DNA from: Streptomyces sp. NBC_00286
Lineage (GTDB): Bacteria; Actinomycetota; Actinomycetes; Streptomycetales; Streptomycetaceae
Direction: 5' to 3'
Assembly: GCF_036173125.1 (NCBI RefSeq)
Contig: NZ_CP108054.1
Span: 3,100,001 to 3,164,000 of the forward strand
Length of the DNA stretch: 64,000 nucleotides
A program made the translations under genes and the position numbers. Shown here one piece after another: positions 44,073-58,722 of the stretch (position 1 is the first letter of the stretch; every line of letters begins with the position of its first letter). The notes beneath the pieces were generated by a model. It worked only from the letters and a program-made list of their open reading frames with translations, did no database searches and was not told the origin of the DNA.

Positions 44073-44144
44073 GCCCCCGTAGCTCAGGGGATAGAGCAAC
44101 GGCCTCCGGAGCCGTGTGCGCAGGTTCGAATCCTGCCGGGGGCA
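44073..44144 (+). tRNA. tRNA-Arg (anticodon CCG)
   Basis: Acceptor GCCCCCG pairs with CGGGGGC, with discriminator A at 44144. The D arm is GCTC-AGGGGATA-GAGC and the anticodon arm ACGGC-CTCCGGA-GCCGT, giving anticodon CCG. The variable loop has 4 nt, and the T arm is GCAGG-TTCGAAT-CCTGC. CCA is not encoded. The 3' portion from the anticodon loop on is duplicated at 58680, marking it as the integration site of the element. Confidence 0.95.
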
Positions 44145-44145
44145 C
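44103..44145 (+). other. attL core (tRNA-Arg 3' half)
   Basis: These 43 bp are identical to 58680-58722. They run from the anticodon loop through the tRNA 3' end plus one base. The tRNA gene is left intact by integration. Confidence 0.93.
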
Positions 44146-44376: not shown

Positions 44377-45750
44377 TCACTCGTACTCGCGCAACAGCTC
44401 CTCGATCTTGCGGTTGGCGATCTCCTGTCGTCCGTCGATGCACTTCGCGTAGCGGCTCAGCAGGACCTCGACGCTGTTCCCCGCACGCTCGGCAACCTCG
44501 GTCGCGTCGACGCCGGAGTTGAGCCAGGTCGACAGCGCCGAGTGCCGCAGGTCGTACGGGCGGGCAGCGAGCGGCGAGGCGAAAACGGCCGGCGGGAGTG
44601 CCAGTGCGCGAGCCTCCTGCCAGACGCGGTAGTACGTCGACGAGCCGACCACTCCCCCGCGCTCGTTGGTAAACAGCCGCCCGTCCTGCGCAGCGCCGAA
44701 GGTGTCGAGGTGGTCCCGGAGGATCGCCACGAGCTGGGGCGGGATCGGTACGGGCCGGACCTCTTCGACGGGCCGGTTCTTGAGCCCGCGGTCATCGTGC
44801 GTCTCTCCCGAGTCGGTCCATCGCTTGCCGACACTGGGGCGAGTGCGGTTCAGCAGAGCGGTTCCCCAACCCGTTTCCGGCAGCTTCAGGTCCGCCTCTT
44901 TGAGGCCGACAGCCTCAGCCGGGCGAAAGGCGCCGTAATACATGCAGGCGAACAGCCCGACGAGTCGACGGCCACGCGCACGGCCATATCCACCAACGTA
45001 CGAGATCGCAGTCAGCAGAGCGCAAGCCTGTTCGGGGTTGGCCACGACTCGGGGATCTACTTCCTTGACCACCTTCGGTTTCTTCCAGCGAACCGCAGTG
45101 ATCGGATTCTCTTTGAACTCACCGAGATCCACCGCATAGTGCATCGCGTTGACCAGCGTCCGCCGCTTGCGCCGTACGGTTTCCGCCGCAGCCGCCGTTC
45201 CGTCGAGCTTGAGTTTCAGGGAGTCGAGAACGGCGCGGCCGAGTGCTGCATCAGTGAGGTCCGAGAGCGGACGCGACGCCTTGGCCACCCAGTGCAGCGT
45301 GTTCGCGATCTCTGTCGGCAACTCGCGGTCATCAGGGCCGGGGAGGACAAAGGCCCAGTTGCGAAGCGCCTTCCTGAGCAGATTGTCGGCTGGCCGTCCG
45401 GGACGGTCGTCGAGGAGAGCCACCGTGACAGCGGTCAACGCCTCGTTGATCCCGTCGCGTGTGTTTGGTGCAGCGTGCGGCCACTTCATGGCGAGGTACT
45501 TCAGCGCGAACGCGTACCACGTCATGGAGGGCGCCTTTTCGACCATCGAGTCAGGCAGCCCAGTCGCCGTGTCGAATTCCTCGCCATCGCGCATTGCACG
45601 GAGCAGCTTGGAACGGTAGTTGTCGGCAAGTCCCTTGGTGCGGAATTGCTCGGAGCACACGTTCCCGGCAACGATCCACCTGACGTCATAGGACGGTTTC
45701 TTGGTGTTCCTCTTCCGAACGCCCCAGACCTTTACGTCGAGTGACTTCAT
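44377..45750 (-). CDS. int: Tyrosine site-specific integrase of the AICE
   Basis: This 457-residue recombinase inserts the element at tRNA-Arg. An N-terminal arm-binding/SAM-like region (1-215) precedes the catalytic domain. Active-site residues are Arg276 (GAFRPAEA), Arg402 with His403 (YDLRHS) and nucleophile Tyr434 (LLSRYAKC). The first His of the HxxR box is Tyr399 and the later His/Trp is Asn425 (AGNSVE); both changes also occur in related Streptomyces integrases. ATG 45750 overlaps the xis stop by 4 bp and has GAGGG upstream. It is next to attL, as expected. Confidence 0.93.
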   Translation of the reverse strand: MKSLDVKVWGVRKRNTKKPSYDVRWIVAGNVCSEQFRTKGLADNYRSKLLRAMRDGEEFDTATGLPDSMVEKAPSMTWYAFALKYLAMKWPHAAPNTRDGINEALTAVTVALLDDRPGRPADNLLRKALRNWAFVLPGPDDRELPTEIANTLHWVAKASRPLSDLTDAALGRAVLDSLKLKLDGTAAAAETVRRKRRTLVNAMHYAVDLGEFKENPITAVRWKKPKVVKEVDPRVVANPEQACALLTAISYVGGYGRARGRRLVGLFACMYYGAFRPAEAVGLKEADLKLPETGWGTALLNRTRPSVGKRWTDSGETHDDRGLKNRPVEEVRPVPIPPQLVAILRDHLDTFGAAQDGRLFTNERGGVVGSSTYYRVWQEARALALPPAVFASPLAARPYDLRHSALSTWLNSGVDATEVAERAGNSVEVLLSRYAKCIDGRQEIANRKIEELLREYE

Positions 45751-45935
45751 GCCGCTGCCCTCTCTCGGCTGTTCAGCCACGCCATGAAGTCGCTCCGCCA
45801 CACCCGCAGTTCACCATTGGGCAGCTTGAAAGCCTGAGGAGCCTGCCCCAATTCGCGCCAGCGATAGAAGGTCCGTCGTGAGACTCCCTTGAGCTCAGCA
45901 AGGATTTCCGGAACGGTCATCAGCTCGTCTTTCAC
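45747..45935 (-). CDS. xis: Excisionase (AlpA/MerR-like HTH)
   Basis: This 62-residue winged-helix protein has TVPEILAELKGVSRRTFYRW (recognition helix region) and ELRVWRSDFMAWL. It is the typical Xis between repSA and int in pSAM2-like elements. The start overlaps the repSA stop and its stop overlaps the int start, each by 4 bp, so all three are cotranslated. It directs Int toward excision. Confidence 0.9.
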   Translation of the reverse strand: MKDELMTVPEILAELKGVSRRTFYRWRELGQAPQAFKLPNGELRVWRSDFMAWLNSRERAAA

Positions 45936-47323
45936 GCCGGTTCTCCTTCCAAGGTGAGTTCGTCACGTAGGGCTTCGCGGGCGGTTTCGCGGTTGAGCTG
46001 GAGATCGCGGGCAATGGACGCCGCGAGAGCGGATTCGCCGGGGGTGTGGCCGTGTCCTGCGTACTGCCAGGAGGTGAGCACGAGCACGGTGTCCGGCTCG
46101 GTGCCGTCGAGGCCGAGCGTTTGGCGTTCCTGGCCGGCGCGGTAGTCGGCTCGGGTCTGCCGGAGCGCGCCGAGGGTGGTGGAGTAGCGGCGGGACTTGG
46201 AGGAAAAGTGCCCGCGAAAGCCCAGCATGTGAGCCCAAGCACGTAGCCGCCGGTCCGGGTAGAGCGGTTCGAGGTCAAAGCAGGCGTCGATGAGCCGGCG
46301 GGCATGGTCGGGCACGCCGAGCAAGACGGCCGCCTCCCGGTTGCCGATCGGCCGGTCGAGAGTACCGGTGTTCTCGGCGGCTTTGGTGGCGTACTTGGCG
46401 ACGTAGGAGGCCACCGCCTGCTCCGTGAGGTCGGAGCCGTCGCCGAACGCCTTCACCGGCCGGATGTCGAGCTGAGCGCCCCACTGGAAGGTACGAGCCG
46501 GCTCGTCACCGGCAGCGGGCACGGACACCGAGGCGTACCGGTGCACCGCAGCGGCTCGGATCGCATCGGTGAGGAGTTCCACGGTGGCCCAGGACGGCGG
46601 CGGATCGTCGGGGCCGTCCGGTCCGTCGAGGCGGATCACGGCGTGGAAGTGGACCGCGCCGCGCTTTTGGAACTCGGCGACCTTGCCGTACGAGACCCGT
46701 GCGGTGTCGGCGAGTTCGCGTTGGGTGATGCCGGCCCGTGCGGCGATCTCCCGGCGCAGCCGCTTGACGAAGCGGTGCCACAGGTCCCCGGCGTGGTTGT
46801 TGAACAGCACCGCGCCCGCGTAGTCGTAGGTGGCCGGGTCGAGCGCGGTGCCGAGGGCGGGATCGTCCTCCGCATGCCGGGCGCCGCAGCGGCAGGGGCG
46901 GTTGCCGGGCCGGTTGTGGACCGGACCGAACGAGGGGGCGGTGAAGGTGGCGAAGACGCGGGGACGCTCCCGCACGGTGGCCGGGATCTCGTAACGGTCG
47001 TCGCCGGCGAGTCCGGCCCGGATGAGGTGGTAGGTGTCCCCGGCGTACGTCCAGGCGCAGGCCGGACAGCGGGACGCGCGGCGGTTGCCGCAGGCGATGC
47101 GCAGCCGGCCGCCCGGCTCGTGCTCGGTGCTGTAGCGGTGCAGCGTCTCACCGGTCGTCTTGTCCTTGGTGAGGGTCCAGCCGGTGAGGTGGATGGGGTC
47201 GGCGCAGCCGCCGGTGCGCTTGATCTGGTCTTGCCAGCGGTCGAAGCCCGGAGTCCCGGCCACCCGCAGCATGTCGGCGAGGGTGTCCGGGGCCAGGCCC
47301 GCGATAGTGGCGGTGTCGGTCAC
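45932..47323 (-). CDS. repSA: Rolling-circle replication initiator RepSA
   Basis: This 463-residue initiator has an N-terminal zinc-binding part (CPAC at 86-89; CRCG at 144-147). The HUH nuclease motif HFHAVIRLDG is at about 225-234, with candidate nucleophile tyrosines in SYVAKYATKAAE (Y307/Y311). GTG 47323 follows GGAGGTGG and overlaps the methyltransferase stop. The longer upstream frame is antisense noise. RepSA nicks the double-strand origin after excision and is essential for AICE replication. Confidence 0.9.
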   Translation of the reverse strand: MTDTATIAGLAPDTLADMLRVAGTPGFDRWQDQIKRTGGCADPIHLTGWTLTKDKTTGETLHRYSTEHEPGGRLRIACGNRRASRCPACAWTYAGDTYHLIRAGLAGDDRYEIPATVRERPRVFATFTAPSFGPVHNRPGNRPCRCGARHAEDDPALGTALDPATYDYAGAVLFNNHAGDLWHRFVKRLRREIAARAGITQRELADTARVSYGKVAEFQKRGAVHFHAVIRLDGPDGPDDPPPSWATVELLTDAIRAAAVHRYASVSVPAAGDEPARTFQWGAQLDIRPVKAFGDGSDLTEQAVASYVAKYATKAAENTGTLDRPIGNREAAVLLGVPDHARRLIDACFDLEPLYPDRRLRAWAHMLGFRGHFSSKSRRYSTTLGALRQTRADYRAGQERQTLGLDGTEPDTVLVLTSWQYAGHGHTPGESALAASIARDLQLNRETAREALRDELTLEGEPA

Positions 47324-47976
47324 GCGGCCACCTCCAAACGGGAGGTAAGAAAGGCTCGGCCAAGGTGCTCGGTGTAGGCCGGGGGGATGCACTCGCGGAT
47401 GCCGTCGCGGTTCATCCACGGCACGCCCATCACGGTGCGGGCGAGGGGGACGCCGGAGAAGTTGCCGATGAACTGGCCGTAGTGGCCGGGCGGGACGGGG
47501 CGGCCCATCTTGGCCTGCGGTGCGGTGTGCCGCAGGTGGCGGGGCTGGACGAAGGCGAAGCCGCCGCCGGTCTCGAAGTAGCGGTGCCGGTAGGTGGCCA
47601 GACCGAACATGCCGCCGCACAGCAGCACCGGTGTACGGAGCTTGGGCAGCGCGCCCCGGACGTTTTCGATGACGAAGGGTCGTCCGGTCGCTTCCAGCGC
47701 GGCGCGGGTCGGGCCGATCAGGTCGGGGTGGGTGTTGCCCTGGAGTCGCTGGCAGTCGCTGTCGAACTGGCAGGGCGGTGAGGCGTGGATGAAGTCGAAT
47801 TTGGCGCCGTGTTCGCGGACGTAGTCGATCGCGTCGGCCTGGATGAACCGGAACGGGTAGCGGGGCTGCGGGGCGAGGTCGATGCCGGTGACGTCGAATC
47901 CGGCGTCGGCGTAGCCCTTGCCGGCACCGCCCTGGCAGCAGAACAGATCCAGGACGCTGAGACGGACATCAGACAC
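47320..47976 (-). CDS. Small C5-cytosine-type DNA methyltransferase (218 aa)
   Basis: Cytosine-C5 methyltransferase motifs are recognisable: SAM motif LDLFCCQGGAGKGYADAGF, the catalytic Pro-Cys loop ASPPCQ, the ENV motif in PFVIENVRG, a YRHRYFE motif VIII, and a C-terminal GNFSG followed by IPPAYTE. At 218 residues it is about half normal length; the target-recognition region is nearly absent. Similar short enzymes occur in phages and AICEs. It may protect element DNA from host restriction or mark replicating copies. It is tightly coupled to repSA and to the small Cys-rich gene upstream (8-bp overlap). Confidence 0.85.
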   Translation of the reverse strand: MSDVRLSVLDLFCCQGGAGKGYADAGFDVTGIDLAPQPRYPFRFIQADAIDYVREHGAKFDFIHASPPCQFDSDCQRLQGNTHPDLIGPTRAALEATGRPFVIENVRGALPKLRTPVLLCGGMFGLATYRHRYFETGGGFAFVQPRHLRHTAPQAKMGRPVPPGHYGQFIGNFSGVPLARTVMGVPWMNRDGIRECIPPAYTEHLGRAFLTSRLEVAA

Positions 47977-50667: not shown

Positions 50668-52005
50668 TCAGGCGGCTTCGGCCACCGCAGGCGCCTCGAC
50701 GGGCGCGAGATCAACCACCGGCCTGAAGCGGGCCAACTCCGGCAGTTCTGGGGTCAGGTGCGCGTACCGGTTGCAGGCGGACACGGCTTGCCGCATAGAG
50801 GTGTGCGGGGTGCGGATGCGGGTCCATTCACCGGTGGAGTAGCCGACCACGGCCATGCCCCGGCGCGTGTTGGGGATCTGGGTAGCGGCGAACACCGCGT
50901 GCGGGGAGATGTCCCCGAAGGCCATCTTGGCGGTGGACTCGTCGTTGACGCGGTGCACGGTCCGACCGGTCAACTGGGCGCGCAGCATGGTGATGCCGTC
51001 GCCGAGTTCGGAGCCGAAGCGCTGCCCGTAGAGGTCCAGGAAGATGCCGGCCGCGCGGCCGAGCTGGGCGAGGCGGATCAGGGCGGTGATGATCCGGTCC
51101 CGGCGCGGATCGTTCCGCTTGCTGCTCATGGCGAGTTCGGCGATCTCGTCGATCGTGACCACGATCGGCACCGGGCGCAGCGCTTCGGGCAGGTCCCAGA
51201 TGTTCGCGGCGATCTCCGCATCCGGGGTGTCCGCGCTGATCCGCTGCTCACGGCGAATCACGTCGTAGATGCCCGCCATCCTCGACACGAGCGCTTCGAG
51301 GAGATCGGCCGCATCGTCGGGGTTGTCGGCCAGCGCGGACAGCCGACGGGCGAACGGGCTCAGTTCGATCGTCTTGCAGTCGATGCCGACCAGCGCCACG
51401 CGTTGTGCGGCCAGTTCTTTGATCACGGTGCGCTGGAAGACGGACTTGCCGGACTGGGTGGCGCCGACCGTCACCGAGTGCGGCACCTCCCGGTAGTCGC
51501 GGTAGTGGACGCTGCCGTCCTCCACCAGCGCGACCGGGATGCGCAGCAGGCCACGGCCGGTCTTGGCGGGCATCTGGACGTGCTTGAGCACGTCGTAGCC
51601 GGTCAGGGTGATCTCGATGACGCCCGGTTTGATCTCGCGTGAGGTGACCTGGTGGACGGCGAAGGAGTGGCGCAGCCGGTCGGCGGCGGCGGAGAACTCG
51701 AACGCGTCCTGGCCGGGCCACATCTTGATCCGCAGCCGGACCCCGGTCCGTGTCGGCTTGATCCACAGCAGTCGGGGCACCCGCTGCTGCGGAGCCGGCC
51801 GCTTGGACCAGCGGGCCAGTGCCAGCCGCCACCGGGAGGCCGGAACGGTCAGGTGGCAGGCGTCCATCACGGCCGCATACCGCAGCCGTATGCGCAGGAC
51901 GGAGAACGCGATGCCGAAGGTCAGCCAGTACCAGGCGGGGCGGCGCCACTTCAGCAGCAGTGCCAGCCCGGCCACGATCGCCAGCGCGATCAGTACTCGC
52001 GTCAT
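50668..52005 (-). CDS. traSA: FtsK/SpoIIIE-type DNA translocase TraSA
   Basis: This single protein pumps double-stranded DNA between hyphae in pSAM2-like transfer. The 445-residue protein has a short N-terminal membrane part (two spans within 1-40), then the FtsK ATPase: Walker A VGATQSGKSVF (181-188) and Walker B IVVTIDEIAELAM (281-288). Further motifs are a QRFGSELGDGITMLRAQLTGR segment and a C-terminal tail. ATG 52005 overlaps the SCO3933-like stop region. The symbol is by homology with pSAM2. Expression is probably repressed by the divergent GntR regulator. Confidence 0.9.
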   Translation of the reverse strand: MTRVLIALAIVAGLALLLKWRRPAWYWLTFGIAFSVLRIRLRYAAVMDACHLTVPASRWRLALARWSKRPAPQQRVPRLLWIKPTRTGVRLRIKMWPGQDAFEFSAAADRLRHSFAVHQVTSREIKPGVIEITLTGYDVLKHVQMPAKTGRGLLRIPVALVEDGSVHYRDYREVPHSVTVGATQSGKSVFQRTVIKELAAQRVALVGIDCKTIELSPFARRLSALADNPDDAADLLEALVSRMAGIYDVIRREQRISADTPDAEIAANIWDLPEALRPVPIVVTIDEIAELAMSSKRNDPRRDRIITALIRLAQLGRAAGIFLDLYGQRFGSELGDGITMLRAQLTGRTVHRVNDESTAKMAFGDISPHAVFAATQIPNTRRGMAVVGYSTGEWTRIRTPHTSMRQAVSACNRYAHLTPELPELARFRPVVDLAPVEAPAVAEAA

Positions 52006-52007
52006 GA

Positions 52008-52364
52008 TCAGGCCGCCTTCGGCTTCGATGCGCCGGCCGCGAGCGAGGTGACCGCGACCGCGCGGAAGCTGATGCCGTGCCGCTTCTGGCCGTTGAACTC
52101 GTTCTCCCACGGCCGGGCGATCAGCCCGGTGAGCGCCACCGGGGTACCCATCTCCAGCTCACCGGAGATGTCCGGCTCGGCGACCGTGATGGTCACGACC
52201 TCGGCGTTGCCGTTCATCACGAACAGCACGTCGACGGTCATCAGCTTCGGTCCGTTGTCGCCATCGGTGGCGATCACGCCGTTGCGCTTGTCACGCATCT
52301 TGACCTGCGGAGGCTGGGCGACCATCAGGGTCGCGCCGTTCGTGTCGACGGGGATCTGACGCAT
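52008..52364 (-). CDS. SCO3933-family regulatory protein (Pra-like position, 118 aa)
   Basis: The protein is beta-rich, with an OB-like pattern: VDVLFVMNGNAEVVTITVAEP, GELEMGTPVALTGLIARPWEN and a C-terminal ISFRAVAVTSL. Proteins of this type lie between the GntR gene and traSA in AICEs. In pSAM2 the corresponding Pra activates rep, xis and int. It is the first gene of the leftward operon, with GntR operator-like palindromes in its promoter. Activator or single-strand-binding roles are both possible. Confidence 0.7.
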   Translation of the reverse strand: MRQIPVDTNGATLMVAQPPQVKMRDKRNGVIATDGDNGPKLMTVDVLFVMNGNAEVVTITVAEPDISGELEMGTPVALTGLIARPWENEFNGQKRHGISFRAVAVTSLAAGASKPKAA

Positions 52365-53109: not shown

Positions 53110-54339
53110 ATGCGAGGAATGACAACGAACCTGACGATCGGCGAGCGAGTCGCTTGGTACCGCCGACGGCGCGGAATCTCCCAAGAAGTTCTGGCCGGCA
53201 GGATCGGCCGTACGGTCGACTGGCTGAGCAAGGCCGAGAACAACCGCTTGGAGCTGGACCGACTGTCGGTCATCAAGTCCCTGGCGGACGCCCTGGACGT
53301 GTCCCTTGGCGATCTGCTTGCCGAACCGACGCTCATGGACTGGACGCCCGACAGCGGCACGCGCACCGTACCCGCCCTGCGATCAGCGCTTATGAACTAC
53401 CGGCAGCTCACTCCGTTGTTGGGCGTGCCGACCGAGGGCGAGCCGACGCCGCTCGGTGAACTGCGTACGAACGTGATCGAGGTCTGGGAGGCGTACCAAG
53501 ACTCCCGGTTCGGCTTCGCGACCCACCGCCTGCCTCTTCTTCTGACGGATGCGCTCATCGCGGCGCAGTCGTACGACGGCCAAGAGCAGGAGACAGCCCA
53601 TGATCTCACCGCCCTGACCTACCAGGGCGCGGCCATGGTGCTCACCAAGCTCGGCGAAACTGACCTTGCATGGATCGCTGCCGACCGTGGACTTAACTCG
53701 GCTCAGCAGACGGGGAATCCGGTCGTGACCGGGTCTCTGTTCCGATCAGTCGCTCACTGCCTGCTCTCCAACGGCCGGTTCGGTGCAGCCGTCCAACTCG
53801 TCAGCGACGCAGCCGACTACCTTCGTCCCCAGCTCGACCGAGTAGACGTGTCGCCGGGGTTCCTGTCGATCTACGGAACGCTCTTCCTCACCGGATCGAT
53901 GGCCGCCGCCCGCGCCGATGATCGCGCAGCTACCCGAGACTTCCTCGACCAGGCCGATCGCGTCGCCCAGCAGCTCGGCGCTGACGCCAATCACATGTGG
54001 ACCGCATTCGGGCCGACCAACGTCGCAATCCACCGCGTCGCCACGGCTGCCGAGCTGGGAGACGTGCAAGTCGCGATGGATCTCGGACCGGAGATCGACA
54101 CCAGCGGTCTACCGACCGAGCGTCGTACACGGCACAACATCGAAGTAGCCCGCGCGCTGAGCCTCAGCAACCGCACAGACGACGCGCTCGCCACGCTGCT
54201 CGAAGCCGAGAGCTGGGCCCCTGAACAGGTGCGCAGCCACTATCTCGCCCGTGAACTGGTCCTGACATGGGTGCGGAACCAGCGGGGCCGGCCAAGCCCG
54301 AGTCTTGCCGACCTGGCCCAGCGCTTGCACGTCGTATGA
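53110..54339 (+). CDS. XRE-family transcriptional regulator (409 aa)
   Basis: The N-terminal helix-turn-helix (about 8-68) reads TIGERVAWYRRRRGISQEVL, then RTVDWLSKAENNR and a KSLADALDVSLGDLL tail. The rest is a TPR-like helical array (about 90-409), as in Streptomyces regulators that accompany KorSA and Nudix genes in AICEs. ATG 53110 is used; ATG 53119 is possible but has no spacing for a ribosome site. It is followed after 19 bp by the Nudix gene, so they probably form one unit. Confidence 0.85.
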   Translation: MRGMTTNLTIGERVAWYRRRRGISQEVLAGRIGRTVDWLSKAENNRLELDRLSVIKSLADALDVSLGDLLAEPTLMDWTPDSGTRTVPALRSALMNYRQLTPLLGVPTEGEPTPLGELRTNVIEVWEAYQDSRFGFATHRLPLLLTDALIAAQSYDGQEQETAHDLTALTYQGAAMVLTKLGETDLAWIAADRGLNSAQQTGNPVVTGSLFRSVAHCLLSNGRFGAAVQLVSDAADYLRPQLDRVDVSPGFLSIYGTLFLTGSMAAARADDRAATRDFLDQADRVAQQLGADANHMWTAFGPTNVAIHRVATAAELGDVQVAMDLGPEIDTSGLPTERRTRHNIEVARALSLSNRTDDALATLLEAESWAPEQVRSHYLARELVLTWVRNQRGRPSPSLADLAQRLHVV

Positions 54340-54358
54340 CGTAGGTACGCTCGACTGC

Positions 54359-54844
54359 ATGGCAGCCAACGAGCACGAAGCGAAGATGGCGCATCCGCGT
54401 GTGGCCGCGGGTGCGCTCTTCTTTGATCAGGCCGGACGCGTCCTCATGGTCGAGCCGTCCTACAAGGACTACTGGGACATCCCCGGCGGGTACGTGGAGA
54501 CAGGCGAGTCCCCGTTGCAAGCTGCCGCGCGCGAGGTGCGCGAAGAGCTGGGGATCACTCCACGTCTGGGCCGACTCCTTGCCGTCGACTGGGCCCCGAA
54601 CAGAAGCGAAGGCGACAAGATCCTGTACCTCTTCGAGGGGAGCCGGCTCACGCCCGAGGACTTGGCCAGGATCACCCTCCAACCGGACGAGCTGACGAGC
54701 TTCGCGTTCCTCGCGCCCGCAGAGATCAACGAGCGCACCATCCCGCGACTTGCCCGACGCATCCATGCGGCGATCGATGCCCGCACGGCCGCAGCTCCGG
54801 TCTATCTCGAACACGGCCAGACGCCTGATCCGGCTGCCGCATAG
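54359..54844 (+). CDS. Nudix hydrolase, Pif-like (161 aa)
   Basis: The Nudix box GGYVETGESPLQAAAREVRE is followed by ELGI; the GX5EX7REUXEEXGU pattern is complete with catalytic Glu residues present. ATG 54359 begins MAANEHEAKMAHPRVAAGAL. In pSAM2 the Nudix protein Pif gives donor immunity by blocking transfer between cells that already carry the element. The gene here holds the corresponding place near the GntR repressor. Its own substrate is unknown. Confidence 0.82.
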   Translation: MAANEHEAKMAHPRVAAGALFFDQAGRVLMVEPSYKDYWDIPGGYVETGESPLQAAAREVREELGITPRLGRLLAVDWAPNRSEGDKILYLFEGSRLTPEDLARITLQPDELTSFAFLAPAEINERTIPRLARRIHAAIDARTAAAPVYLEHGQTPDPAAA

Positions 54845-55685
54845 AGCACGCGGTCAGACTTTCCCTACTTCATCAAGGCTCGCTGCGCTCGCTCATCCGG
54901 CGGCCGACGGCGCTTGTCGATCATCGCCAACCCGGCCGCCGCGGACTCCGCCCAAGCGCATCAACGGCCGCTCGCGGCCAGCATGCCGCCGCCACCACGA
55001 CCGGCCTCGGGAGGGGAAAGATCCAACCGCAGTTAGACCTCAGCGCCCCGCTTCCGGGGCCACCACGCACCCCTTTCCACCCGGTTGCCTAACACCGTTA
55101 GGTCGGATCAAACCGAGGGCCGCGCCAAGCGCGGCGGCGCCGGTCGGTCGCCGCCGCGCCGCCTCCATGTCTTCGCCACCGGCGCACGTCACCGCCCGCC
55201 CGTCGCCGCACGCAGCGGCCACATTCCAACACGGGCACGGGGACGAACGGTGATCCCCAACGGTGCAGGCCACAGATGCTTTGTGTTACCGAAAGAGGCC
55301 GGATCATGGTGGCGGCGGCATGCGGGCCAACGCTGCCAGATGCGCGGGCGTTCATACGGCCCGCTGATCCCACACCAGGCCACCGGCCGGCGAGCGCGAC
55401 CATGAGAGGGGGAGAAACCCCGTCGTGGCTGGGGCGGTCGGCTCCACGACTTTAGCCAGCCACTTTGGCGCGAGCCTCGAAGATCATGGCCCCAACGTCG
55501 TGCTTTAACGGGCAGGTCCACAGACTGCCCGACTCGCCGGAAGCTTAAGGGGCCATGATCACTCGCGCCAAAGCAGCTCCCGGCCAAAGTCGCTCCACCG
55601 ACCGGGGGTCATGCCAGGGCTCGTTGGGGGAAAGAGATGGAGCGATTCCCTGAACGGCCATCCAACGCCAGCCAAATGAAGTCCA
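54845..55685. other. ORF-poor, strongly palindromic region of the AICE (candidate origin or transfer locus)
   Basis: No supported gene lies in these 841 bp. There are many inverted repeats: CCTAAC-ACC-GTTAGG near 55087-55101, GC-rich GGCGGC/GCCGCC stems near 55130-55165, and a large cruciform at 55464-55572. The site divides the regulatory genes from the cargo genes. A double- or single-strand replication origin, or the clt site used by TraSA, would be expected somewhere in the element; this is the main non-coding candidate. Confidence 0.5.
55464..55572. repeat. Large imperfect inverted repeat with inner hairpin
   Basis: The outer arms TTTGGCGCGAG (55464-55474) and GATCATGGCCCC (55482-55493) pair with GGGGCCATGATC (55549-55560) and CTCGCGCCAAA (55562-55572). 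An inner GGGCAG/CTGCCC hairpin sits at about 55510-55530. Together they would form a branched cruciform of about 110 bp. Confidence 0.85.
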
Positions 55686-57596
55686 TTAAGCGTACCGCCT
55701 TGCCCAACCCGATGCGTCATGTCTTACTCGATCGGACACGTCAAGCAGCGTCCTTGCCACTCTGGCCTTCGAGGCATCTTCTATCAAGTCAGTTTCCGTC
55801 AAGCGAGCCGCCAACTCGCTAAAAAATTCCTGAGCCCTAGGTATCAAGTCAAGCAACAACGCGAAGTCATCGTGGCCTACAAACGAAGTATCGAGATCCC
55901 GGAGAAGCAGATCCAAGTTGCCGTATATCTCTTCGGCAATCTCGGGCGGAAGGTTTGACGATCCCACGACAGCTCGAACCCGCTTGCAGCCCTTGATTAG
56001 GGATTCTGCGGCTTCAAACCCTGCGCTACCACGGAGTACTGGAGAGCCCGCGCGGCTACGACGCTGGGATATAAATCGTTCACCCACAATAGTAGGACGA
56101 TAGGGGTGCAGATCAGCGGCAGAGACAGATCGCAGAGCTTCTCGGAAGCAGGGATGTAGCACCAAATTTGTCTCGTGCGGCTCGATGCGATCAGGATCCT
56201 CATATGAGTAGACAATGGCACCCCTGCGTCGAACTCCTATAAACCCTACCGCGTAAAGCACGTCCAGGATTCCATCGACGGTAAGTGCACTGCTAAACTG
56301 CGGATAACGTCCGACAAATGAAGCTTGCATGGCCTCAAAGCGACTCGCGAGGGTCCTTCGAGAGAATAGATAGCCCGTGTTTTGAAAAAGGACAAAAAGA
56401 TCCCCAAGGAAAGGATAGTTGACCAGGTATTCATTAACTAGGTCCGCTATTTTCCAATTGGAATACTGCGTCGTCGCCTCTATTATGTCAGAACTTTCAA
56501 TTATCCGGTTCCCATTCTTTTCTGCGGTGTCGCGGCAAAGGTTGCAGAATTGGATGAGGTCCCTAGGCCTCATGAGGGTGCGCGCAATCACATATTTGTC
56601 CGACTTAGCCTTACCGACGCGCTCACTGAAGACAGCCCTCCACAGGTCATCATGCGTGACTTCCCTGCTCAACGAGGCAGTCGCACGAGCGCGAACGAGC
56701 TCCAAGAGTCGAGCTGGCGTCCAATCGATACGCATCTCGTCCCCGCGAAACTTATCCCGATCGCCGAACTGCAAGAAGTCGTAGATGTCGGTGCGAAGAA
56801 ATACTGCGCAGCGGACTTGGGGAAACGCACGCGACACATGCTTAGCTGCCTGTAGAAGGCCCACTACCAGCGCATCGGAATCCTCGTCGTTAGACCAAAC
56901 CTTCTCGATCTGATCAATAAGCAGCACTATTGGTGGGTGCCCATCCGGACACTGCAACTCATCCAAGGCAATCTTGATGTTTTCCTCCAGTACATCAAGC
57001 TGGCCAGACGCTCGAACACCTTCAGGCGGCGCACCCCCAGGTGTCGGCTGATCATTTACCCCAACCTTCACGCCAAATGCTTCTAGCGAAAGTGAAGAGC
57101 TCAGCTTCTTGATTACTTTCCAAAATTTTTCATGAAAGTTCAAGTCATCTGCTTCGCCGTTTTCGAGAAGAAACTTCCTTACGGCAGCCACGGATGAAGG
57201 CTGTGACTCGCTATGCGCATCCCGGGCGTGAGCTACAACATATTTCGCTGTCTGCACGGCGAGTATGTAGCGCCAGACCAATTCCTTTGCCAGAGGTGAA
57301 CGTATTCCAGGCAGCTCAAAGCGCCTGAGCTCATCAGCGGATATTTCATCTGGAGTGACCAGGCAGGCATGGAAGGGGAGATTTTGGTCGCATGCTAGGG
57401 TCACGCAGATGGCACTCTTGCCAGAGCCCTTTCTGCCAATAATGAGCATCTTTCTGCCGTCAAGGACGGCTTTATAGGCGGCAGTCTCCAAGAAGCCTGC
57501 TTTCAGCAGTCCTCCGGCAGCAATGTCAGATTCGGCGTCGTCCTTGCCAAAGTAAAGGCTGGCAAGTGGGAAGGCTTGGTCGCTACTCATCGTCAT
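55686..57596 (-). CDS. P-loop ATPase, Sll1717-type, low-GC cargo gene (636 aa)
   Basis: The N-terminus has LYFGKDDAESD, then the Walker A IIGRKGSGKSAICVTLA (54-61), and Walker B PPIVLLIDQIEKVW (about 223-231). A sensor-like VFLRTDIYDFLQF follows near 265-280, then winged-helix-like helices (350-470). The C-terminal region (500-636) has no known motif. The opening FGK.DAE.D plus GRKGSGKS pattern matches the Sll1717 P-loop ATPase family, whose role is unknown but which often lies in defence or mobile contexts. GC and codon use are much lower than in all neighbours, indicating recent acquisition. Start ATG 57596 or 57590. Genes at this spot in AICEs are usually cargo. Confidence 0.8.
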   Translation of the reverse strand: MTMSSDQAFPLASLYFGKDDAESDIAAGGLLKAGFLETAAYKAVLDGRKMLIIGRKGSGKSAICVTLACDQNLPFHACLVTPDEISADELRRFELPGIRSPLAKELVWRYILAVQTAKYVVAHARDAHSESQPSSVAAVRKFLLENGEADDLNFHEKFWKVIKKLSSSLSLEAFGVKVGVNDQPTPGGAPPEGVRASGQLDVLEENIKIALDELQCPDGHPPIVLLIDQIEKVWSNDEDSDALVVGLLQAAKHVSRAFPQVRCAVFLRTDIYDFLQFGDRDKFRGDEMRIDWTPARLLELVRARATASLSREVTHDDLWRAVFSERVGKAKSDKYVIARTLMRPRDLIQFCNLCRDTAEKNGNRIIESSDIIEATTQYSNWKIADLVNEYLVNYPFLGDLFVLFQNTGYLFSRRTLASRFEAMQASFVGRYPQFSSALTVDGILDVLYAVGFIGVRRRGAIVYSYEDPDRIEPHETNLVLHPCFREALRSVSAADLHPYRPTIVGERFISQRRSRAGSPVLRGSAGFEAAESLIKGCKRVRAVVGSSNLPPEIAEEIYGNLDLLLRDLDTSFVGHDDFALLLDLIPRAQEFFSELAARLTETDLIEDASKARVARTLLDVSDRVRHDASGWARRYA

Positions 57597-57775
57597 CGCC
57601 CGCTTCTGATGTAGCGCATCCTGAACCCTTGGGGCCCCTCTTACGACGCTACATCTGAGGCCATAGCTGCGCACGCTGGAACACGTATGAGTGGGCCGTA
57701 GTACAGCCCACAGCAGTCGCGCCGCCTAGTTGGCACCCGGGTCGATATACATCAAGCCCGCTAGGTGCTCGGGCA

Positions 57776-58390
57776 CTACGCAGATCGCCTAGCATCAGGG
57801 AGTTCAAGCGGCTCATGGTGATGCCACAGTATGTGGCGGTCACCGCGGCGCAGCTCTGCGTCTCCCCACTCAAGACGCATAACCCCTGTAGCCATGGCAC
57901 ACGCGTACGCCAGGAGCACCAAGCCGACGTCCGGGTCGAGTTGGCTTAAGTCCTTGTGGAACTCCTGTTCTTGCAGGGCCTCAAGCCCAAGATCCAATTC
58001 ACCTTGAAGGGGCTCTGGACCATGACGGCGGATCAGATCGGCCCGGAGGCCCACCGCGCGTCGAAGGCGAGCCACCGTGACCGGTACGTCTCGTTTGGCG
58101 TAGCGGATCGGGTACAACACCTGGCCGGCAACAACCATCACCGTGCGGGCTTGCAGACGTACCGCCGTAGCGCCTGGAAGGCCAGCGAGCCCAACTGCCA
58201 ACTCCTCGTACTGGGAAGCGTGAAGACCGTGTCCGTACGCTTCCAGAGTCTGCGTACCCACTCCCCGGTGGCCGTCCCGTGCCCGTTCGTGCGCCCTGAC
58301 AATGCACTCTGGGATCAGCTTCGACAACGGGGGAGCCAACTCACCAAAGACGCTGTGCGACCATGACACGTTTGTGCTGCGCTCCGCCAT
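57776..58390 (-). CDS. Conserved hypothetical protein next to the ATPase (204 aa)
   Basis: ATG 58390 (MAERSTNVSWSHSVFGEL) follows AGGGGG. Notable segments are IPECIVRAHERARDGH, VGTQTLEAYGHGLHASQY and RLQARTVMVVAGQVLYPIRY, then PEPLQGELDLGLEAL. It is soluble and mixed alpha/beta. It reads in the same direction as the ATPase gene and is 180 bp upstream of it. GC is moderate (between ATPase and host). No family function is known to me; it might be the effector or partner of the ATPase. Confidence 0.65.
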   Translation of the reverse strand: MAERSTNVSWSHSVFGELAPPLSKLIPECIVRAHERARDGHRGVGTQTLEAYGHGLHASQYEELAVGLAGLPGATAVRLQARTVMVVAGQVLYPIRYAKRDVPVTVARLRRAVGLRADLIRRHGPEPLQGELDLGLEALQEQEFHKDLSQLDPDVGLVLLAYACAMATGVMRLEWGDAELRRGDRHILWHHHEPLELPDARRSA

Positions 58391-58600
58391 CCCGTTCCCC
58401 CTCGCACTCATGGCACTGTCAGAGGCAACTACGAACACCGAAGATGACGCGCAGTGAGGCTCGCCGCAAGGGCGCACAGCGGGCGCTCCGGGCGCAGGTC
58501 ACCAACAACAGCAAGGTTGAGCCATCAACGTCAGATCTGGCACGCTTCCGTCGGTGCCGCATCGAACCTGGTGAGGGCCTTGAACGGGGTCTCCAGACTC

Positions 58601-58618
58601 TGGACTATTTATGGACAG
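58601..58618 (+). promoter_or_regulatory. Candidate arm-type integrase site (right)
   Basis: TGGACTATTTATGGACAG lies 62 bp inside attR, matching 16 of 18 bases at 44253-44270 in the same orientation. Confidence 0.55.
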
Positions 58619-58679
58619 ATCCCCGACAAGTTGACGCGATAGAGCCTCTGACCAGCACGTTAGCCGCGAGGTGAAGCGC

Positions 58680-58722
58680 CCTCCGGAGCCGTGTGCGCAG
58701 GTTCGAATCCTGCCGGGGGCAC
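58680..58722 (+). other. attR core
   Basis: This is an identical 43-bp copy of the tRNA-Arg 3' half. It lacks the 5' half and is not a functional tRNA. It marks the right end of the AICE. Confidence 0.93.

Follow-up and report, generated by a model that had tools for sequence, protein, structure and literature searches.

A Sll1717-family ATPase as candidate single-gene defence cargo of a Streptomyces integrative element

The 64,000-nucleotide stretch of the 9.85-Mb chromosome of Streptomyces sp. NBC_00286 analysed here (the window) contains an actinomycete integrative and conjugative element (AICE) whose limits are two copies of a 46-bp tRNA-Arg repeat that are 98% identical. Beside the right-hand copy (attR) lie two leftward genes, one encoding a P-loop (AAA+) ATPase of the Sll1717 family and the other a conserved 204-aa protein. 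Our tentative interpretation is that the ATPase is solitary, horizontally acquired AICE cargo and most likely a single-gene system of defence or exclusion directed against phages or competing mobile elements. This interpretation rests on its intact AAA+/P-loop core, the predicted winged helix and C-terminal bundle, its foreign composition, the genes that occupy the same slot in related elements, and distant homology to the anti-phage system DS-41. The first-pass annotation of this DNA had suggested an anti-phage or exclusion module made of a sensor ATPase and a small partner. Its defence part gained support from the kind of slot in which the gene sits and from the distant anti-phage homology; the pattern of a sensor with a small partner did not hold up.

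The cargo ATPase

The ATPase most likely starts at the ATG at position 57596 and comprises 636 aa. This start was preferred because a database copy (P0003) also has 636 aa and because a GTG-started ORF of 662 aa exceeds most of the listed homologues in length. The protein matched the NCBIfam model ATPase_Sll1717 (NF047389) with 360.6 bits against a cut-off of 75, across the full length of the model (positions 1 to 454 of 454). It differs from the model in its C terminus, about 145 residues of which lie beyond the end of the 454 positions. The name Sll1717 occurred in no paper of the literature that we searched, and no tested function was found there. Two earlier observations, that the Walker motifs are intact and that the gene is lower in GC content than its surroundings, were both borne out. 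The GRKGSGKS sequence of Walker A and the LLIDQ of the Walker B region are complete and conserved, and the GC content of 0.53 (0.55 at third codon positions) compares with 0.65 to 0.71 for the integrase, Rep, and Tra genes. It is the lowest among the 40 called genes of at least 200 aa in the window (median, 0.70), the calls coming from a crude script that uses GC by codon position and that, at 60 aa, missed the window's 204-aa gene.

A structure model based on 54 sequences had a predicted local distance difference test (pLDDT) score of 89.9 and a predicted template modelling (pTM) score of 0.88. In this model an AAA+ core is followed by a winged-helix-like region, and four helices (residues 525 to 635) make up the C terminus. 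The C-terminal region had previously been described as lacking any known motif. This remains true, yet the region is structured, with about 110 residues confidently predicted to be helical. The effector motif of HEPN domains is Rx4-6H, and no conserved instance of this type was seen by eye in the C-terminal columns of 27 aligned ATPases. The nearest structural neighbours of the model were Cdc6/Orc1, Sso1545 (an archaeal ATPase), CED-4, and TnsC; generic AAA+ ATPases ranked little behind. The ATPase differs from ORC/Cdc6, STAND (CED-4), and TnsC proteins in that identity is 11 to 14%, the C-terminal bundle lies beyond the matched range, and a PDB sequence search with the ATPase family gave no match at E ≤ 0.01. 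A search of viral structures returned one match at E ≤ 0.001, which is unnamed.

The first-pass annotation needs correction in one further respect, as the ATPase has distant matches to defence families in both PADLOC and NCBIfam. One of these is DS-41 (NF053860), which the DefensePredictor paper (PMC13092281) places among validated anti-phage systems, with relatives in Halobacteria. The homology is distant and covers part of the ATPase core; the window protein scored 24.1 bits against a cut-off of 370, and the match stops ahead of the C-terminal helical bundle. Among 54 close relatives of the ATPase, 47 matched DS-41 at E ≤ 1e-3 (best, 7e-12). The other is the PADLOC candidate PDC-M28C, to which residues 249 to 352 of the ORF matched with E = 6e-9. 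This match is only partial; 52 of the 54 relatives shared it at E ≤ 1e-3, and the name PDC-M28 appeared in no paper of the literature searched.

If the ATPase acts in defence, its winged-helix and C-terminal parts may bind a cue of the invading element. ATP binding would then bring about oligomerisation, as in ORC and STAND ATPases, and the assembled ATPase would block either the invader or the host cell, with the 204-aa protein as a separate passenger. A stronger version, which we consider doubtful, is that the ATPase represents a new type of single-gene anti-invader system: a long-form Sll1717 ATPase whose core resembles ORC/STAND proteins and whose C-terminal four-helix bundle acts as sensor or effector, spreading alone between phyla and residing here in an AICE defence-exchange slot next to a replication hairpin. 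Should the ATPase prove protective, a widespread, uncharacterised NCBI ATPase family would gain a tested function.

An exchangeable slot at the attR end

The two leftward genes had been placed by the first-pass annotation at the variable end of the AICE, and both ORFs proved to be real, intact, and sufficient to fill a slot there. We compared the window with 40 sister regions of 19.9 kb (one of 5.2 kb) surrounding the better integrase matches; several matches near contig ends were skipped. Integrase identity in these regions is 64 to 96%, and 38 of them contain a RepSA-like gene. DNA similarity to the window (matches of at least 100 bp) extends to about position 55603 in 19 of the 40 and stops exactly there in 13. 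It restarts at 58644 to 58649 in four regions (labelled L235, L237, L243, and L247) and elsewhere only at the attachment (att) repeat. Given these breaks, the interval from 55604 to about 58645, which holds just the two genes, behaves as exchangeable cargo. Neither gene was found by tblastn in the 40 sister regions.

The distal att site was located in 17 sister regions; in the other 23, slot coverage may be incomplete. Restriction/modification or PADLOC-type genes are present in the slot of at least 11 of the 17 att-bounded elements (9 without two HATPase cases). In the latter two, L235 and L236, the N-terminal part of a HATPase-type protein matches a PADLOC restriction model, with E values of 8e-37 and 1e-8, respectively. 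The remaining slots contain an SMC-like ATPase with LmuB matches and a DNA methyltransferase (L237), SacI-type restriction-modification (L238, as well as L246 by 62% and 82% identity to L238), a DNA methyltransferase and a Fic protein (L243), a type IIG restriction-methyltransferase and a PLD/SNF2 helicase (L255), an HmaB-like methyltransferase and a helicase (L259), McrBC (L261), a NaeI-type restriction enzyme and a cytosine methyltransferase (L267), and a type II/III-like methyltransferase (L270). Outside these 11, a Fic protein occupies the slot of L250 and a protein kinase that of L269. No restriction or PADLOC-type gene was recognised in the slots of L249, L251, L271, and L272, the last two of which were run through PADLOC in batch only and otherwise judged by eye.

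That batch, made up of all 77 slot proteins of at least 140 aa, gave matches to 214 families, in an output that does not assign families to single proteins. A control batch of 55 proteins encoded just outside the att sites matched 46 PADLOC families, one protein each, and these include restriction enzymes of types III and IV as well as kinase models. The control is not clean, and we do not claim enrichment over background as measured; the position of the slot nevertheless supports defence-type cargo. AICE cargo with phage-resistance, restriction-modification, and abortive-infection genes has already been described (PMC9513070). The present element is of the same kind, and its sister slots carry restriction/abortive-infection-type genes; the window's own cargo differs in being an uncharacterised ATPase. 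The AICE setting with defence cargo is therefore known, and the ATPase is the uncharacterised part. A bounded slot also provides a route to more candidates, since AICEs with an integrase of this family can be read from hairpin to attR.

Relatives, alternative roles, and the neighbouring gene

The loci of named ATPase relatives examined were the best 80 of 88 (77 distinct), with as much as 10 kb of flanking DNA at either end, some ended by a contig edge; genes in them were called with the crude script described above. A tree of 85 sequences was built with FastTree and rooted at the midpoint, with long branches flagged and kinase labels set by hand; five unresolved or truncated sequences (L122, L170, L172, L173, and L176) were left out. 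The window ATPase grouped with three Streptomyces proteins and one of metagenomic origin (74% identity). This grouping sits in a set of 17 sequences (support, 97) with members from Pseudofrankia, Defluviicoccus, Pseudoduganella, Sphingomonadales, Acidobacteria, and cyanobacteria. The ATPase gene has a lower GC content than its locus in all eight named loci of the set, and likewise in many loci outside it. By eye, the neighbours within the set are mostly ordinary genes (mobile-looking contexts were seen at L106 and L130), and no recurrent partner was apparent, save a kinase in two cases. No Streptomyces homologue above 49% identity was found among 392 genomes of the genus or 395 relatives (overlapping sets); a protein search listed three at 51 to 53%.

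More distant relatives were found in 280 plasmid records, 3 phage records, and 14 viral-contig loci. Enterobacterial plasmids, mostly of 104 to 124 kb (H2 to H14 and H16 to H20), carry Sll1717-like genes of about 24% identity, several of them annotated as HypX, and two Klebsiella phage records of 109.6 kb (H24 and H25) contain a relative that is likewise 24% identical. Some of these may be phage-plasmids. A tRNA or argS hotspot for the ATPase was considered and rejected: marker proteins (named by eye) taken from the argS-lysS surroundings of many Streptomyces relatives gave only one 50-residue match in the window (34% identity, E = 7e-6), which lies outside the AICE, and a tRNA is present in 4 of the 77 loci.

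An alternative that we regard as unlikely is that the ATPase is regulatory, working with a Ser/Thr kinase in its relatives and acting here as an orphan on host signalling. The kinase motif HRDxKPxN is encoded no more than two called genes away from the ATPase in 28 of the 77 named loci; in 13 of these, the motif-bearing gene follows the ATPase gene immediately on the same strand. A protein of about 600 aa is also nearby, common to 11 loci. The window's own 17-sequence set includes two such cases, the cyanobacterial L127 and L133, in which the kinase adjoins. Most kinase neighbours, however, belong to the other side of the tree, and they are not independent, because many share one chromosomal neighbourhood (argS and lysS by eye). 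The window's AICE contains no kinase by family matches or by eye, and defence systems, too, contain kinases. As a separate observation, chromosomal Sll1717 ATPases of Streptomyces (L109, L113, L115, L124, L143, and others) are followed immediately by a Ser/Thr kinase gene in the same orientation; by eye, the C-terminal part of these kinases is often long and coiled-coil-like. The other layout has a protein of about 600 aa and a kinase upstream on the opposite strand. These genes may form an ATPase-kinase module.

Two further alternatives are, in our judgement, equally improbable. The first is that the ATPase, as a DNA-bound protein resembling ORC or TnsC, helps to maintain or replicate the AICE or to handle its DNA. 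The presence of ORC/Cdc6 and TnsC among the best structural neighbours and the position of the slot beside a candidate replication hairpin would fit such a role, but its absence from the 40 sister regions by tblastn argues against a core function, and RepSA and an FtsK-like protein are already there. The second is that the gene is a neutral or decaying passenger. About half of AICE cargo genes are short and probable pseudogenes, according to PMC9513070; the ATPase ORF, in contrast, is full-length with conserved motifs.

The ORF of the 204-aa protein was taken as real because 218 database proteins match it at E ≤ 1e-3, the best of them full-length. An operon with the ATPase gene is not shown, because the two are 179 bp apart and unlike in composition (the GC content of the 204-aa gene is 0.626). 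Neither the 204-aa family nor RepSA was detected at any of the 77 named ATPase loci (tblastn, E ≤ 1e-5), and among 20 unnamed ATPase regions a single one (L082) had a relative of about 30% identity, some 10.7 kb distant. The Sll1717 family is present above cut-off in 19 of 199 Streptomyces genomes and the 204-aa family in 41 (17 at 56% identity or more and full-length, the window counted). With the window's genome left out, 6 of 198 contain both families, against 3.6 expected (Fisher P = 0.21). The two genes do not form a conserved pair. The absence of a conserved association in this survey, together with that of both genes from the sister regions, contradicts the earlier proposal of a sensor ATPase with a small partner, but it does not count against the ATPase alone. 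A two-gene defence or exclusion module, although the genes are adjacent, on the same strand, and jointly fill the slot, is therefore very improbable and was dropped. Shared slot position is weak evidence for functional pairing of adjacent genes.

A RepSA- or Tra-like gene lies near members of the 204-aa family in 7 of 20 loci (L061, L063, L071, L073, L075, L078, and L079) and a tRNA in 8 of 20; the protein therefore seems to travel independently, as a passenger of integrative elements. Pfam gave only three weak families on 36 aligned sequences, and a PDB sequence search with the family found nothing. An active nuclease was also considered and gained no support. The catalytic motif of PD-(D/E)XK enzymes is D...(D/E)xK in adjacent strands, and it was not found: E62 and D184 are the only invariant acidic residues across the 36 sequences, neither of them in the predicted strands at 82 to 98. 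At L061, L062, and L063, the 204-aa gene adjoins an oppositely oriented gene of 312 to 322 aa that by eye resembles a slot protein of L251 (12353 to 13381).

The element and the hairpin at the inner slot edge

The features of a pSAM2-type AICE are all present (a tyrosine integrase, RepSA, an FtsK-like Tra protein, and att repeats at a tRNA), with RepSA alone scoring above its model cut-off. Comparable gene sets in the sister regions back this assignment, and genes like that for the FtsK-like protein occur in most of them. Integrase matches at E ≤ 1e-80 were found in 241 of 392 Streptomyces genomes. Regulators and the putative NUDIX gene adjoin the cargo inside the element. Relatives of the NUDIX gene occur in some sister regions; for Pif, a role in conjugal immunity is described in PMC3218068. 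Rfam at gathering thresholds recognised nothing but the tRNA, and a scan for sigma-70 promoters and terminators performed no better than on shuffled sequence.

Table 1. Features of the AICE and its cargo slot, in window coordinates
Feature	Position	Strand	Basis
attL repeat copy, 46 bp, 3' end of tRNA-Arg (CCG)	44100..44145	+	tRNA prediction, repeat search
Tyrosine integrase of the AICE	44377..45801	-	Pfam Phage_integrase (E = 2e-4) and XerC (E = 1e-7), both under cut-off
RepSA replication initiator, AICE core	45932..47620	-	NF041486, 852.5 bits (cut-off, 700)
FtsK-like transfer protein, AICE core	50668..52110	-	Weak matches to EccC, FtsK, and TraB, none above cut-off
Putative NUDIX hydrolase, possibly Pif-like conjugal-immunity factor	54305..54844	+	Motif read by eye
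Conserved noncoding imperfect palindrome, 188 bp, candidate sso	55416..55603	+	Sister-region matches, DNA fold
Cargo slot with both genes	55604..58645 (right edge approximate)		DNA similarity to sister regions stops near 55603, restarts at 58644-58649
Sll1717-family P-loop (AAA+) ATPase, 636 aa, GC 0.53	55686..57596	-	NCBIfam NF047389, motifs, predicted structure
Conserved 204-aa protein outside any Pfam family; listed homologues mainly from Streptomyces and Kitasatospora	57776..58390	-	ORF, homologues
attR repeat copy, 46 bp	58677..58722	+	Repeat search, 98% identical

The inner edge of the slot is formed by an imperfect palindrome, a hairpin that we take to be a candidate single-strand origin (sso/sti-like) of rolling-circle AICEs. 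The DNA fold of positions 55400 to 55640 has a z score of -4.3, and, across the 21 copies compared, 10 of 52 predicted pairs are retained despite changes at both positions. The palindrome recurs in the 19 related regions mentioned above, with its right end exactly at 55603 in the 13. Three more copies are present in the same genome, and matches were found on 10 plasmid records. The sso of plasmid pIJ101 (PMC4170104) serves as a point of reference. At about 4.14 Mb on the host chromosome (L295, 9359 to 12721), a second hairpin copy is followed by a low-GC (0.54) ORF of 1120 aa whose called start lies within the hairpin, a layout that suggests that cargo again adjoins the hairpin.
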